A stretch of 49,951 nucleotides of DNA from Clostridia bacterium (GTDB lineage: Bacteria > Bacillota > Clostridia > Oscillospirales > CAG-272), in contig JAFSWB010000021.1 in NCBI GenBank assembly GCA_017444735.1, forward strand, positions 1 through 49,951, given 5' to 3'. A model generated the notes under the pieces. The model was not told the origin of the DNA. It saw nothing but the letters and a program-made list of their open reading frames with translations, and searched no databases. Position 1 is the stretch's first letter. Each line of letters opens with the position of its first letter. The position numbers were made by a program, and so were the translations under genes. This document shows positions 22,406 through 25,948 of the stretch, piece after piece.

Positions 22406-23125
22406 ATGGACGACAAAGACAAGAGGGAGATCCTCGCCCTCCGCGAATACGATATCGACTCGCTCCGCCGGATCATCGCGTGCCTCCGATCCGAAAACGG
22501 GTGTCCGTGGGACAGGGTACAGACGCACAAATCAATAAGGAAGGATCTTATCGAGGAAACTTACGAGGTAGCCGAGGCCATCGACAACGACGATCCGGTC
22601 CTTCTCCGCGAGGAGCTCGGTGATCTTCTCCTTCAGGTGGCTTTCCACGCAAGGATCGAGGAGGAAAAAGGGAGCTTCTCCCTGACTGAAGTTATATCCG
22701 ATCTTTGCGAAAAACTTATAAGAAGACACGGCCACGTTTTCGGAGACGTCAAGGCGGACGATCCGGATGCCGCTCTCGCGTCGTGGAACGCGGCGAAGGG
22801 CGTCGAGAAAAAACGCGGCGGCGCGCGCGGCGATATGGAGGCGATCCCTCCGTCGCTCCCGTCGCTTATGAGGGCGAAAAAAGCCGCTAAAACCGCTCTG
22901 AAGGACGGTTATTCCTTCGGCGGCGCGGATGAAATTTTACGCCGCGCCTCCGACGCTCTCGGCGAGCTTTCCGGGGCCGGAAAAGCGGACGACGAGGAAA
23001 CGCGGGACAGACTCGCGGACGTTTTATTCGATTTATGTACTGTTTTTGCTATGTTCGACGGCGATCCGGAGGAAAAATTGTATAAAAAAACCGCTGAATT
23101 TATAGAAAGTTATACAAATTTGTGA
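22406..23125 (+). CDS. mazG: MazG nucleoside triphosphate pyrophosphohydrolase
   Basis: A 239-residue MazG that hydrolyses (d)NTPs to monophosphates and helps clear aberrant nucleotides. The first domain is complete: CPWDRVQTHKSIRKDLIEE, EETYEVAEAI (EExxE), then REELGDLLLQVAFHA. The second MazG domain (about 150-235) is degenerate: the EExxE is not visible and RLADVLFDL replaces the ELGD helix. Typical of Firmicute YabN C-terminal parts, though Bacillus YabN also has an N-terminal methylase domain that is absent here. The ATG at 22406 has AAAGGA upstream; the frame is open to a TTG at 22382 overlapping the flippase stop. Confidence 0.92.
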   Translation: MDDKDKREILALREYDIDSLRRIIACLRSENGCPWDRVQTHKSIRKDLIEETYEVAEAIDNDDPVLLREELGDLLLQVAFHARIEEEKGSFSLTEVISDLCEKLIRRHGHVFGDVKADDPDAALASWNAAKGVEKKRGGARGDMEAIPPSLPSLMRAKKAAKTALKDGYSFGGADEILRRASDALGELSGAGKADDEETRDRLADVLFDLCTVFAMFDGDPEEKLYKKTAEFIESYTNL

Positions 23126-23153
23126 AAAAACCAAAATAATTTCCATATTTCAC

Positions 23154-23182
23154 TTGAAAAAACGCCGTTGCGGTGGTATACT
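23154..23182 (+). promoter_or_regulatory. Sigma-A-type promoter of hup
   Basis: TTGAAA (23154-23159), 17 bases, TATACT (23177-23182), in a conspicuously AT-rich stretch between mazG and hup, about 52 bases before the hup ATG. Confidence 0.75.
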
Positions 23183-23234
23183 ATTTGACGGTTTGAAAAA
23201 GCCGAAAAATACTGAAAGAAAAGGAAGTAAGATC

Positions 23235-23513
23235 ATGAATAAGTCACAGCTCGTAGCATCCGTTGCAGAGAAGACCGGTCTCACCAAGAAGGCCGCAGAA
23301 GGCGCGCTTGCCGCAGTCCTCGGATCAGTCGAAGAAGCTCTCGTTAAGGGAGACAAAGTCCAGCTTATCGGCTTCGGCACGTTCGGCGTCAAGAAGAGAG
23401 CAGCCAGAACCGGCAGAAACCCCTCCACCGGCGCAGCCATCAAGGTTCCCGCCTCCAAGGTCGTTTCGTTCGCTCCCTCGTCCACTCTTAAAGAGAAGGT
23501 CAACAAGAAATAA
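23235..23513 (+). CDS. hup: DNA-binding protein HU
   Basis: A 92-residue HU/IHF-family nucleoid protein that bends and compacts DNA as a dimer. The sequence MNKSQLVASVAEKTGLTKKA, the FGTFGVKKRAARTGRNPSTG beta arm and the basic C-terminus match the family. Codon use differs from its neighbours (more GCA and AAG), as expected for a highly expressed gene. ATG follows AAGGAAG; an upstream in-frame extension to 23154 is rejected because it crosses the promoter. HU is placed between mazG and rqcP, as in several Clostridia. A short GGGAC/GTCCC stem follows the stop, only a weak terminator, so read-through into rqcP is likely. Confidence 0.96.
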   Translation: MNKSQLVASVAEKTGLTKKAAEGALAAVLGSVEEALVKGDKVQLIGFGTFGVKKRAARTGRNPSTGAAIKVPASKVVSFAPSSTLKEKVNKK

Positions 23514-23561
23514 TTTTCTTCCGGGACCGCGAGTCCCTTTGTATCCGGGAGGGCGCCTCGA

Positions 23562-23807
23562 ATGCGGCTTGATAAATTTCTCAAAGTTTCGCGTATCATA
23601 AAGCGCCGTACCGTGGCTAACGAAGCCTGCGACAACGGTCACGTCGAGGTCAACGGCAAAACGGCCCGCGCCTCGTATGACGTAAAGGAAGGCGACGTTA
23701 TCAGGATCGCTTTCGGCGAACGCACCGTCTCTCTTCGTGTCCTTGACGTAAGGGACAACGTTCAGAAAGCGCAAGCCTCGGATCTCTTTGAGATCATTGA
23801 AGGCTGA
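23562..23807 (+). CDS. rqcP: S4-domain RNA-binding protein RqcP
   Basis: An 81-residue S4-domain protein (YabO family). RLDKFLKVSRIIKRRTVANE and NGHVEVNGKTA are the S4 motifs. RqcP binds stalled 50S subunits with RqcH in ribosome quality control and helps add C-terminal alanine tails. Its place after mazG and before yabP-yabQ-divIC matches yabO in Bacillus. ATG after GGGAGGGCG. Confidence 0.9.
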   Translation: MRLDKFLKVSRIIKRRTVANEACDNGHVEVNGKTARASYDVKEGDVIRIAFGERTVSLRVLDVRDNVQKAQASDLFEIIEG

Positions 23808-23809
23808 CG

Positions 23810-23839
23810 GTAATATTGATTCTATGCCGCTCATAAAAT
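23810..23839 (+). promoter_or_regulatory. Sigma-E-like sporulation promoter of yabP
   Basis: GTAATATT (23810-23817) matches the sigma-E -35 consensus GKMATATT in all eight positions. After 14 bases comes CATAAAAT (23832-23839), one mismatch from CATACAMT. YabP and yabQ are sigma-E regulated in Bacillus subtilis. Transcription would begin near 23846, inside the loop of the hairpin at 23824-23869. Confidence 0.65.
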
Positions 23840-23869
23840 TATATGAAGAATATAATTTTGGAGCGGCAT
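23824..23869 (+). promoter_or_regulatory. Hairpin covering the yabP ribosome binding site
   Basis: ATGCCGCTC (23824-23832) pairs with GAGCGGCAT (23861-23869), and AAAATTATAT (23835-23844) with ATATAATTTT (23850-23859). This makes a 19-pair stem with a GAAGA loop. The right arm contains most of the GGAG ribosome site (23860-23863) and ends just before the yabP ATG at 23870. A transcript started at the embedded sigma-E-like promoter would lack the left arm. Confidence 0.7.
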
Positions 23870-24151
23870 ATGAATACCGTAGGGGAAAAAGAGCATAAGG
23901 TCCTCATGGTCTCGCGCGGCTATCTTGACGTCAGCGGGGTCGAGGAGGTCGAGAGTTATTCGGAAACGTCGGTCGTCGCGGTATCCTCAATGGGCGCCTT
24001 CTCCGTCGAAGGCGAGGGGATCCGTATTGACAGTTTTTCCGCGGAGAGCGGCAGGCTCGTCGTCCGCGGGAAGATCGACGGACTTTTCTATTACGGAGAC
24101 GAATCGGGCAAGAAAAAGCGCTTCGGCTTTTCGCGTACAAAAGGAAGCTGA
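23870..24151 (+). CDS. yabP: Sporulation protein YabP
   Basis: A 93-residue YabP/YqfC-family sporulation protein. It has the short beta-rich form MVSRGYLDVSGVEEVESYSE, TSVVAVSSMGAFSVEG and the basic tail. Its role is in spore coat or envelope formation in the mother cell; the exact function is not settled. The start at 23870 has GGAG upstream. An ATG at 23843 in the same frame lies in the hairpin loop without a ribosome site. It is followed by yabQ after three bases and preceded by the sigma-E-like promoter. Confidence 0.85.
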   Translation: MNTVGEKEHKVLMVSRGYLDVSGVEEVESYSETSVVAVSSMGAFSVEGEGIRIDSFSAESGRLVVRGKIDGLFYYGDESGKKKRFGFSRTKGS

Positions 24152-24154
24152 TCC

Positions 24155-24757
24155 GTGAAGGTATTCATTCCGGACCAGCTCGCCGCGCTTTTCGCGTTTT
24201 TTTCGGCGGGCGCCGCTTTCGGCGCGCTTTACTGCGTCCTCCGCTTTTTGGGAATGGTCGCGGGAGCCGTTCCGGTCGGCTTTTCGTCGGAACGGACGGT
24301 CTGTCCGTCTCCGATGAGCCGTCCCGTGCGGCGCGTCCTCGTTTTCCTTTCGGACGTGACGCTTTTCGCCGTTTTTTCAGTCGTCTTCTGCGTTATGACG
24401 TACGCGCTGGCGGACGGAAGATTCCGCCTTTACCTTTCAGCGGCGGCGGCAGCGGGCTTTGTTTCGTTCATTTCTCTCCCGGGACGCCTCATAAGACGGC
24501 TGTCGGGAGCCGCGGCGTTCTTTATCCGCGCCGCGATCCGCGCGGCGCTGCTTTTTGCCGCCCGTCCCGTTATTTTCGCCGCGAGGGCGACGGGGAGGCT
24601 TTTCTCGGCGGTCATGTCTCCGATCCGAAGACGGACGACCGCGTTGAAATCGTCGTTTTCCGAAAAGATAAAGGAAAAACGCACAGTGAAGGGCGGAAGA
24701 TCTTCGCCCCGGACCGTCCGGCGCGCCGCCGGATGGGGAAAGGATTTGCGACCTTGA
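24155..24757 (+). CDS. yabQ: Spore cortex membrane protein YabQ
   Basis: A 200-residue membrane protein of the YabQ family. Helices lie at about 8-32, 66-90 and 95-112, followed by a basic Arg-rich tail. The opening IPDQLAALFAFFSAGAAFGALY fits the family, which in Bacillus sits in the spore outer membrane and is needed for cortex formation. It starts with GTG after AAGGAAG. Its stop overlaps the TTG proposed for divIC. The basic tail is longer and less conserved, so identity rests on the helices and on position between yabP and divIC. Confidence 0.8.
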   Translation: MKVFIPDQLAALFAFFSAGAAFGALYCVLRFLGMVAGAVPVGFSSERTVCPSPMSRPVRRVLVFLSDVTLFAVFSVVFCVMTYALADGRFRLYLSAAAAAGFVSFISLPGRLIRRLSGAAAFFIRAAIRAALLFAARPVIFAARATGRLFSAVMSPIRRRTTALKSSFSEKIKEKRTVKGGRSSPRTVRRAAGWGKDLRP

Positions 24758-25029
24758 AGAGTATTACCGGCAATATCGTTTTCAAGGCGGCCGTTATTCT
24801 GTTCGCCGCTCTCTGCATAGCGACGGTCGTTCGTCTTCAGCTCAAGAACAACGGGCTCAAGGCGGATACCGCCTCGCTGAAGGAAAAGATCGAGGAAGAG
24901 GAAAACAGGGTGCGGGAGCTCAAAAGCAAGCTCGACGCTCCGTTTGACGAGGAATACGTTATCGAACTTGCAAAAGAAAAGCTCCACCTGCGTCTTCCCG
25001 ACGAGATCGTTTTTTATACCGACAACTGA
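24754..25029 (+). CDS. divIC: Septum formation initiator DivIC (FtsB family)
   Basis: A 91-residue division protein with one transmembrane helix (about 8-28, IVFKAAVILFAALCIATVV) followed by a coiled coil (TASLKEKIEEEENRVRELKS) and a short end EYVIELAKEKLHLRLPDEIVF. It belongs to the divisome with FtsL and DivIB. The TTG at 24754 is favoured by AAAGGA nine bases before and by its TTGA overlap with the yabQ stop. An ATG at 24733 in the same frame lacks a ribosome site. It ends the yabM-to-divIC cluster. Confidence 0.87.
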   Translation: MKSITGNIVFKAAVILFAALCIATVVRLQLKNNGLKADTASLKEKIEEEENRVRELKSKLDAPFDEEYVIELAKEKLHLRLPDEIVFYTDN

Positions 25030-25036
25030 AAGCCGC

Positions 25037-25072
25037 GTCCCGCCCGTCCGGGCGGGACTTATTGATATTTTA
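25037..25072 (+). terminator. Hairpin after divIC
   Basis: GTCCCGCCCG (25037-25046) and CGGGCGGGAC (25049-25058) are perfectly complementary with a very short loop. TTATTGATATTTT follows; the T-run is imperfect, so termination may be partial. Confidence 0.55.
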
Positions 25073-25084
25073 CGGGTGAAAAGA

Positions 25085-25948
25085 ATGGAAGAAAAAATCA
25101 GACTGATACCGTCGGAGGAGATTTCCGAAGCCGTAAGGCGTCTCTTCCTTTCGACCGCCGTCGAGCTGCCCGCTTTCGCTTCCGGTCGGCTGAAAGAAGC
25201 CGAAAGCGCGGAGACGAGCCCCGTCGGCCGCGAGATCCTCGGAACGCTCTCCCAGAATCTCGACGCCGCCTTGAAGTGCGGCGTTCCGATCTGTCAGGAC
25301 ACGGGAATGGCGGTCGTTTTCGCCGATTTCGGACGCGGCGCGGCCGTCTCGGGGAAATCCTTTACCGACGCGGTCAACGAAGGCGTCCGACGCGCCTACG
25401 TCGACGGCGCTCTCCGGTTGTCCGTCGTCGAAGACCCCCTTTACGAAAGAAAAAACACCGGCGACAACACGCCGGCGGTGATCCACGTCCGTTTTACGGA
25501 CGATCCCGAACTCGCGGGGAAAATACGGCTGACCGCCGCCCCGAAGGGCTTCGGGAGCGAAAACATGAGCGCGATCCGTATGTTCACCCCCTCTGCGAAC
25601 GAGGACGACGTCGCGGAGTTCGTCGTCGGCGTCGCGGCCTCGGCGGGGGCGAATCCGTGCCCGCCGATCTACGTCGGCGTCGGGATCGGAGGAGATTTCG
25701 AGTCGTGCGCGCTTCTTTCAAAACGCGCGCTCCTTCGCGAGAGCGCGTCGGATGACGAGAGGTACGCCCGTCTTGAACGGCGGCTCCTCTCGGAGATCAA
25801 CCGGCTCGGGATCGGACCTCAGGGGTTCGGAGGGGACGTCACCGCGCTCGCCGTTTTCGTCGAACACGCTCCGACGCACATAGCCGGTCTTCCCGTGGCG
25901 GTCAATATCTGCTGTCACGTCAACCGCCACGCCTCCGTCGTCATCTGA
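25085..25948 (+). CDS. fumA: Fumarate hydratase class I, alpha subunit (no beta partner here)
   Basis: A 287-residue alpha subunit of the two-subunit class I fumarase/tartrate dehydratase family, an oxygen-sensitive 4Fe-4S enzyme. The first cluster cysteine is in VPICQDTGMAVVF. KNTGDNTPAVIH, APKGFGSENMS and GANPCPPIYVGVGIGG follow, and the end NICCHVNRHASV is typical. The length is as expected for the alpha part. The beta subunit normally encoded next is missing: the following gene is convergent and overlaps the 3' end by eight bases. The ATG has GGTGA upstream, and an in-frame GTG lies three codons earlier. L-tartrate dehydratase is the alternative. Confidence 0.85.
   Translation: MEEKIRLIPSEEISEAVRRLFLSTAVELPAFASGRLKEAESAETSPVGREILGTLSQNLDAALKCGVPICQDTGMAVVFADFGRGAAVSGKSFTDAVNEGVRRAYVDGALRLSVVEDPLYERKNTGDNTPAVIHVRFTDDPELAGKIRLTAAPKGFGSENMSAIRMFTPSANEDDVAEFVVGVAASAGANPCPPIYVGVGIGGDFESCALLSKRALLRESASDDERYARLERRLLSEINRLGIGPQGFGGDVTALAVFVEHAPTHIAGLPVAVNICCHVNRHASVVI

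Follow-up and report, generated by a model that had tools for sequence, protein, structure and literature searches.

A hairpin embedded in the yabP promoter of spore formers may keep read-through RNA from being translated

In a 49,951-nucleotide stretch of DNA from a Clostridia bacterium (contig JAFSWB010000021.1; hereafter the window), the sporulation gene yabP follows a sigmaE-like promoter whose spacer and -10 element form one arm of a long hairpin, the other arm of which holds the Shine-Dalgarno (SD) sequence of yabP. As an observation this promoter-embedded hairpin, first pointed out in a preliminary description of the window, is confirmed. Comparison of one locus per genus across the window's family indicates that the complementarity of the spacer and -10 to the local SD region is under selection, and folding models support the interpretation offered in that description, namely that RNA reading through from upstream would be closed to ribosomes and RNA from the promoter itself open. 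We consider it probable that in this way the hairpin prevents translation of a sporulation gene from read-through RNA.

The promoter and the hairpin at yabP

Promoters were called with what we take to be the consensus letters of sigmaE. The -35 and -10 elements lie where they had been reported (Table 1), both resemble that consensus, and their spacing of 14 nt is about that expected in the sigmaE regulon. On both strands of the 50-kb window, this is the sole sigmaE-like promoter (score at least 19) with a fitting start 18-75 nt downstream, for which we required an SD-like motif at the start codon and an open reading frame (ORF) of at least 60 amino acids; the scan returned two candidate starts, both of which belong to the yabP promoter. 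The 121-nt stretch around the hairpin occurs once in the window's genome, which is estimated to be 81% complete. By its nearest named HU loci (L157-L161), the organism seems to be an uncultured Clostridia species from the ruminant gut. A search of positions 23000-25200 for Rfam families and riboswitches gave six matches at E ≤ 1, all under their gathering scores, and on this ground we rejected membership in a known RNA family.

The 19-pair stem originally reported at 23824-23869 proved to be the core of a longer one with 25 pairs, in which A23833 is bulged and U23871, of the AUG, is unpaired; its right arm does hold the GGAG of yabP, as had been claimed. The minimum free energy of positions 23815-23880 is -29.4 kcal/mol, compared with -9.2 ± 2.5 kcal/mol in dinucleotide shuffles (z -8.1, reached by 0 of 200). 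When the 14-nt spacer alone was shuffled, pairing with the leader matched that of the real spacer in 3 of 5000 shuffles (p 0.0008).

A transcription start near 23846, predicted from the position of the -10, would fall in the hairpin loop, leaving the left arm outside the transcript. We expressed the accessibility of the ribosome site as the cost of keeping six SD bases open, which in the window is 14.5 kcal/mol in read-through RNA versus 1.9 kcal/mol in promoter RNA (starts at 23845-23849). The stop codon of the upstream S4-domain gene (23805-23807) ends 11 nt ahead of the stem, and a ribosome terminating there should therefore halt before reaching the stem rather than melt it. Translational coupling from the S4 gene to yabP seems unlikely on account of distance. 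A sigma70-like site (TTGAGA, 17 nt, TAATAT; 23788-23816) overlaps the sigmaE-like -35, and RNA from it would begin at about the start of the left arm, still bearing most or all of that arm.

Conservation in the genus, the family and beyond

Eight of the 12 genomes of the genus, the window's included, have a yabP match, and the arrangement is present in all seven others, so that a stem not conserved in close relatives, which the preliminary description had named as a refutation, is not what is found; the arrangement is weaker in genome G023, and the inner stem is shorter in G148. Across the eight sequences 79% of pair cells are retained, compared with 33-48% for slid structures. Their covariation score is 0.081 versus 0.059 and was reached by 2 of 500 shuffles, with a single pair changed on both sides, so that the genus data speak of conservation more than of covariation. 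The evidence for the compensating changes that the preliminary description had proposed to look for is strong between genera, as set out below, but within the genus amounts to one pair, no more than in shuffles.

Across the family, 123 of 146 genomes have a yabP match. With five further genus members this made 128 genomes, from which the best 95 loci were taken by score, skipping G079; two (L006 and L075) had no start, and 86 of the other 93 passed a promoter score of 17, leaving 45 genera at one locus each. Promoters were picked by motif alone, with a score that favours a 14-nt spacing, and 42 of the 45 genera have that spacing.

On average, the spacer and -10 of these promoters pair with their own leader at -15.5 kcal/mol and with swapped leaders at -10.5 kcal/mol (z -11.6, 0 of 5000 permutations). 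Taken by itself, the 14-nt spacer also favours its own SD region (z -9.0), whereas a control segment, the 14 nt that immediately precede the -35, shows no excess pairing with the own leader (z +1.2). The result holds once near-identical loci are removed (44 loci, z -10.9). All 45 left arms are distinct, and the duplex reaches -10 kcal/mol or lower in 36 of the genera; the pairing has its centre over the spacer and the beginning of the -10. Changes on one side are matched on the other, for instance GCCTCC with GGAGGC in L031, CTCTGCC with GGCAGAG in L022, and CCTTTCGCATA with TATGCGAAAGG in L090.

Opening the SD costs 9.0 kcal/mol in the long RNA of these 45 loci, 2.7 in the short RNA, and 5.1 once the promoter segment of the long RNA is swapped (Wilcoxon 4e-9); on average, then, the long RNA is here too predicted to be closed and the short one open. 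Shuffling the spacer gave p<0.05 in 23 of the 45 loci (Fisher combined 1.8e-21; 3.0e-16 in a 33-locus set). At least three SD bases are paired in 69 of 81 family stems.

The signal extends to Bacilli, where 38 loci gave z -7.0 for own versus swapped leaders and z +1.1 for the upstream control (z -6.4 in 27 loci after removal of similar ones). This set, which excludes the yabP leader of B. subtilis itself, consisted of 30 loci from 80 genomes with a match and 8 further ones, and the 38-locus test includes the weak loci L332 and L337. Among the named cases are Geobacillus jurassicus, G. thermocatenulatus, Rossellomorea vietnamensis, Bacillus salacetis and Paenibacillus taiwanensis; the pairing is weak in a metagenome-assembled Bacillaceae genome and in Ureibacillus terrenus. 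In two Bacilli yabP loci (L349 and L370), a strong spacer stem stops short of the SD, similar to an unusual seg43(25) hairpin mentioned in PMC2988022.

Further loci came from the rest of the order (yabP match in 112 of 117 genomes) and of the class (149 of 196); the best 30 of each were taken, of which 28 and 27, respectively, passed the cut. The class loci gave z -4.8, with a control of z -1.9. Many order and class loci show little or no pairing between spacer and SD, and of the order loci that lack an S4 neighbour some may represent the paralogue YqfC. Beyond the window's family and Bacilli, the feature is thus patchy.

How the hairpin may act, and other explanations

In the scheme that we infer, RNA from the hup promoter, the presumed source of read-through, would run during growth via the S4 gene into yabP, bearing both arms of the hairpin. 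The yabP SD would then be buried in the long stem and yabP would not be made, nor probably, through coupling, would yabQ, and the RNA may continue towards divIC. In the sporulating mother cell, polymerase with sigmaE would start inside the hairpin, near 23846, and the short RNA, bearing the right arm alone, would leave the SD open for translation of yabP-yabQ. If growth RNA must cross yabPQ in order to feed divIC, this would be a reason to block translation rather than transcription. No terminator-like site was found between the S4 gene and yabP in a scan of 22900-25300, so RNA of the hup operon may run into yabP, and a promoter scan found no sigma70-like promoter on the + strand from 23820 to divIC. 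In B. subtilis, yabPQ is described as a sigmaE unit within the yabMNOPQ-divIC-yabR operon, with a sigmaX promoter besides for divIC-yabR (PMC1925097).

Several points weigh against this scheme. The weak stem after hup and the five terminator-like sites in yabQ (Table 1) could halt read-through, and those in yabQ argue against assuming that the RNA reaches divIC; the silencing of yabQ, moreover, would depend on coupling. Within the genus, both bases have changed at a single pair (A-U to G-C, 3 of 8 sequences), which 442 of 500 shuffles match, and G148 and G023 break many pairs. Of 81 family stems, 12 cover fewer than three SD bases, and such a stem is missing from 5 of 86 loci. An SD-covering stem (at least 6 pairs and 3 SD nt) arises with 58% of swapped promoter segments versus 82% of own segments, and counting such stems is not diagnostic because swapped segments give one so often. 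The other families of the order gave z -5.9 (28 loci), but their upstream control deviates as well (z -3.3). Loci at which no S4 neighbour was detected are not clearly poor in hairpins: an opening cost of at least 6 was found in 9 of 22 loci without S4 versus 30 of 49 with it (order, class and named loci), in 5 of 6 versus 21 of 27 in Bacilli, and in 1 of 2 versus 66 of 87 in the family.

Other sporulation genes of the family, used as controls, are not silent either, although the signal is stronger at yabP. For spoIVA (25 loci) it is clear but small (z -3.7; spacer-shuffle Fisher 7e-5). At yqfC and spoIIIAA it is slight. The yqfC set gave z -2.9 in 22 loci, two of which (L265 and L266) are really yabP loci; these two were part of the own-versus-swapped and opening-cost tests and were left out of the stem counts and of the spacer shuffles, for which the Fisher value is 0.03. 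At spoIIIAA the spacer alone gave z -2.4, the spacer with the -10 z -1.3, and the shuffles a Fisher value of 0.47, but this gene is a poor control, with a usable promoter in 13 of 29 loci.

A few spoIVA loci (L306, L308 and L311) show strong complementarity between spacer and SD, which most spoIVA loci do not. A same-strand ORF precedes most closed spoIVA loci, and many open ones as well.

Among the alternatives, the inverted repeat may end transcription, or mark an RNase site, for the hup-S4 RNA, with SD pairing as a by-product of crowding. In L074, L140 and L145, the inverted repeat around the -10 leads into a U run and by eye looks like an intrinsic terminator, one that RNA from the promoter itself could not form, and 7 of the 81 family stems are directly followed by an 8-nt stretch with at least five T. 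That criterion flagged L074 but neither L140 nor L145, and in the window the best such stretch holds a single T, for which reason we rejected an intrinsic terminator there. The pairing of SD bases by most family stems also speaks against a by-product, as do the loci with long leaders: in 25 of 41, at least half of the pairs fall in the SD zone, which makes up 26% of the leader, although swapped arms give this in 52% of cases. We regard this explanation as unlikely.

Chance or base composition, with a strong but functionless hairpin in the genus and a generally C-rich spacer elsewhere, could be invoked since swapped arms pair fairly well with SD regions, the arms being C-rich; the deviating upstream control in other families of the order and the signal at control genes point the same way. 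This reading is already disfavoured by the excess of own over swapped pairing in the family and in Bacilli, both with null upstream controls, and by the combined spacer shuffles in the 45- and 33-locus sets, and we find it very improbable.

The palindrome might instead bind, as DNA, a regulator of the sporulation promoter over which it lies; SpoIIID is reported to repress yabPQ in B. subtilis (PMC517825). What is kept, however, is complementarity to the local leader and not a fixed sequence, and we rejected a DNA operator because the 45 genera have 45 different left arms; we find such a site highly improbable. That the hairpin dampens yabP translation at all times, as a small hairpin at the sigG ribosome-binding site does, with a start further upstream and both arms in the sporulation RNA, as the predicted nature of the start and the sigma70-like site at 23788-23816 might allow, is scarcely credible, given a -35/-10 pair kept across the family whose predicted start falls downstream of the left arm.

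If the silencing by the yabP hairpin is real, it may be one case of a class of elements, which we propose tentatively: the spacer and -10 of sporulation promoters inside growth operons of endospore formers would serve as an anti-SD arm whose complementarity to the local SD is deeply conserved, most constantly at yabP (from Clostridia to Bacilli) and in some genera at sigG and spoIVA, and a few lineages may have made of it a terminator that only read-through RNA forms. Bacterial operons often bring together genes required at different times, and how the wrong ones are silenced is seldom clear. With elements of this class, a growth transcript could run through sporulation genes and yield no spore proteins. 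At yabP the lock would be written in the promoter, would require no protein and is maintained by selection in many spore formers, and it would explain why yabP-yabQ can lie among growth genes. The spacer letters of such promoters would carry information, and RNA levels alone would misreport yabP expression. Comparing own with swapped spacer-SD pairing is a simple computational test that can be applied to any regulon.

Known systems and the genes of the locus

The logic itself is known from sigG and I-TevI, and yabP is probably a further, widely conserved case with matched change in the promoter spacers. At sigG (spoIIIG) of B. subtilis, a hairpin acts against read-through from spoIIG and, as is predicted at yabP, cannot arise in RNA that starts at the gene's own sporulation promoter (Masuda 1988 and Sun 1991, as described in PMC5942855). 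The read-through at sigG comes from another sporulation operon and the promoter is a forespore one, whereas at yabP a growth operon (HU) would be the source and the promoter is a sigmaE-like one of the mother cell; yabP also differs in having a division gene downstream and in that conservation has been tested in many genera.

In phages, RNA structures hide the ribosome sites of I-TevI, I-TevII, I-TevIII, segB, soc and e of T4 and of mobE of Aeh1, and for I-TevI the structure occurs, as it would at yabP, in transcripts from upstream promoters alone, RNA from the internal late promoter being too short (PMC2988022). These cases serve the temporal control of phages and concern unrelated genes, not a bacterial developmental operon. 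Folding and sequence comparison point to features at yabP that are expected of an element of the sigG and I-TevI kind: a structure covering the SD, an arm upstream of the predicted start, and complementarity that appears to be selected.

A second, small hairpin at the sigG ribosome-binding site likewise hides the SD of a sporulation gene, but its five pairs lie inside the promoter's own leader and dampen translation before and after the switch (PMC5942855). The left arm of the yabP hairpin, in contrast, lies outside the predicted promoter transcript. In yeast, LUTI mRNAs are long isoforms from an upstream promoter that are not translated, while the short isoform is; they resemble yabP in having a silent long and an active short form and differ in that eukaryotic upstream ORFs, not a hairpin, are responsible. 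No description of a hairpin at yabP was found among the literature matches listed, a search outside which most subscription literature lay, so that novelty is unproven.

Within the window's family, the sigG leaders L384, L394, L396, L400 and L404 seem by eye to hold, on the promoter side, a stretch complementary to the SD, in line with sigG of B. subtilis. By a cruder measure without a promoter model, closing by at least 4 kcal/mol with 100 versus 25 nt of upstream sequence was found for 16 of 28 sigG and 31 of 45 yabP loci; because so many sigG loci close, this gene cannot serve as a negative control.

The features of the window's locus are collected in Table 1. The gap between the S4 and yabP genes is 62 nt and contains the sigmaE-like promoter and most of the hairpin. 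A same-strand S4 gene lies at most 400 nt upstream of yabP in 87 of 89 family loci scored, and DivIC follows downstream in 10 of 10 loci, which were picked from 33 with enough sequence by a visible fitting ORF.

Table 1 Features of the yabP locus in the window.
Feature	Position	Strand	Basis or remark
MazG gene			5'-most in the order MazG-HU-S4-YabP-YabQ-DivIC; Pfam match above cut-off
Sigma70-like hup promoter (TTGAAA, 17 nt, TATACT; TG ahead of -10)	23154..23182	+	10 of 12 consensus matches
hup (HU DNA-binding protein)	23235..23513	+	PF00216, E 8e-35
Weak terminator-like stem in hup/S4 gap (5 pairs, then TTTGT)	23523..23537	+	Terminator scan
S4-domain gene, presumably YabO/RqcP by position	23562..23807	+	PF01479, E 2.5e-13
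-35 of sigmaE-like promoter, GTAATATT	23810..23817	+	Sequence; motif kept across family
Hairpin left arm (anti-SD arm)	23819..23844	+	Within promoter spacer and -10; outside predicted promoter transcript
-10 of sigmaE-like promoter, CATAAAAT	23832..23839	+	14 nt after -35; motif kept across family
Hairpin loop	23845..23849	+	Holds predicted start of sigmaE-like promoter
Hairpin right arm	23850..23875	+	Contains SD and part of start codon
yabP Shine-Dalgarno GGAG	23860..23863	+	Sequence
yabP	23870..24151	+	PF07873, E 9e-13, above Pfam cut-off; ATG at 23870
yabQ (putative)	24155..24757	+	PF09578, 23 bits, under cut-off of 27; gene order
Five overlapping or neighbouring terminator-like sites within GC-rich yabQ	24409-24548	+	Terminator scan
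divIC	24733..25029	+	PF04977, E 4e-9; start ATG 24733 or TTG 24754
Terminator-like stem 3' of divIC, 9 pairs	25037..25058	+	Terminator scan

The HU, S4 and DivIC matches, like those of MazG and YabP, exceed their Pfam cut-offs. YabP scores 48.8 bits against NCBIfam TIGR02892, under the cut-off of 75.4, and the sub-threshold Pfam match together with gene order suggests, weakly, that the next gene is yabQ. The terminator scan of 22900-25300 gave 9 sites versus 4.4 expected, so the stem between hup and the S4 gene may be due to chance; otherwise it could set the share of hup RNA that reads on. The sites within yabQ, of which that at 24528-24548 has 8 G-C pairs, could end untranslated read-through RNA before divIC or could be chance occurrences in GC-rich coding DNA. 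The stem that follows divIC likely marks the end of the operon.
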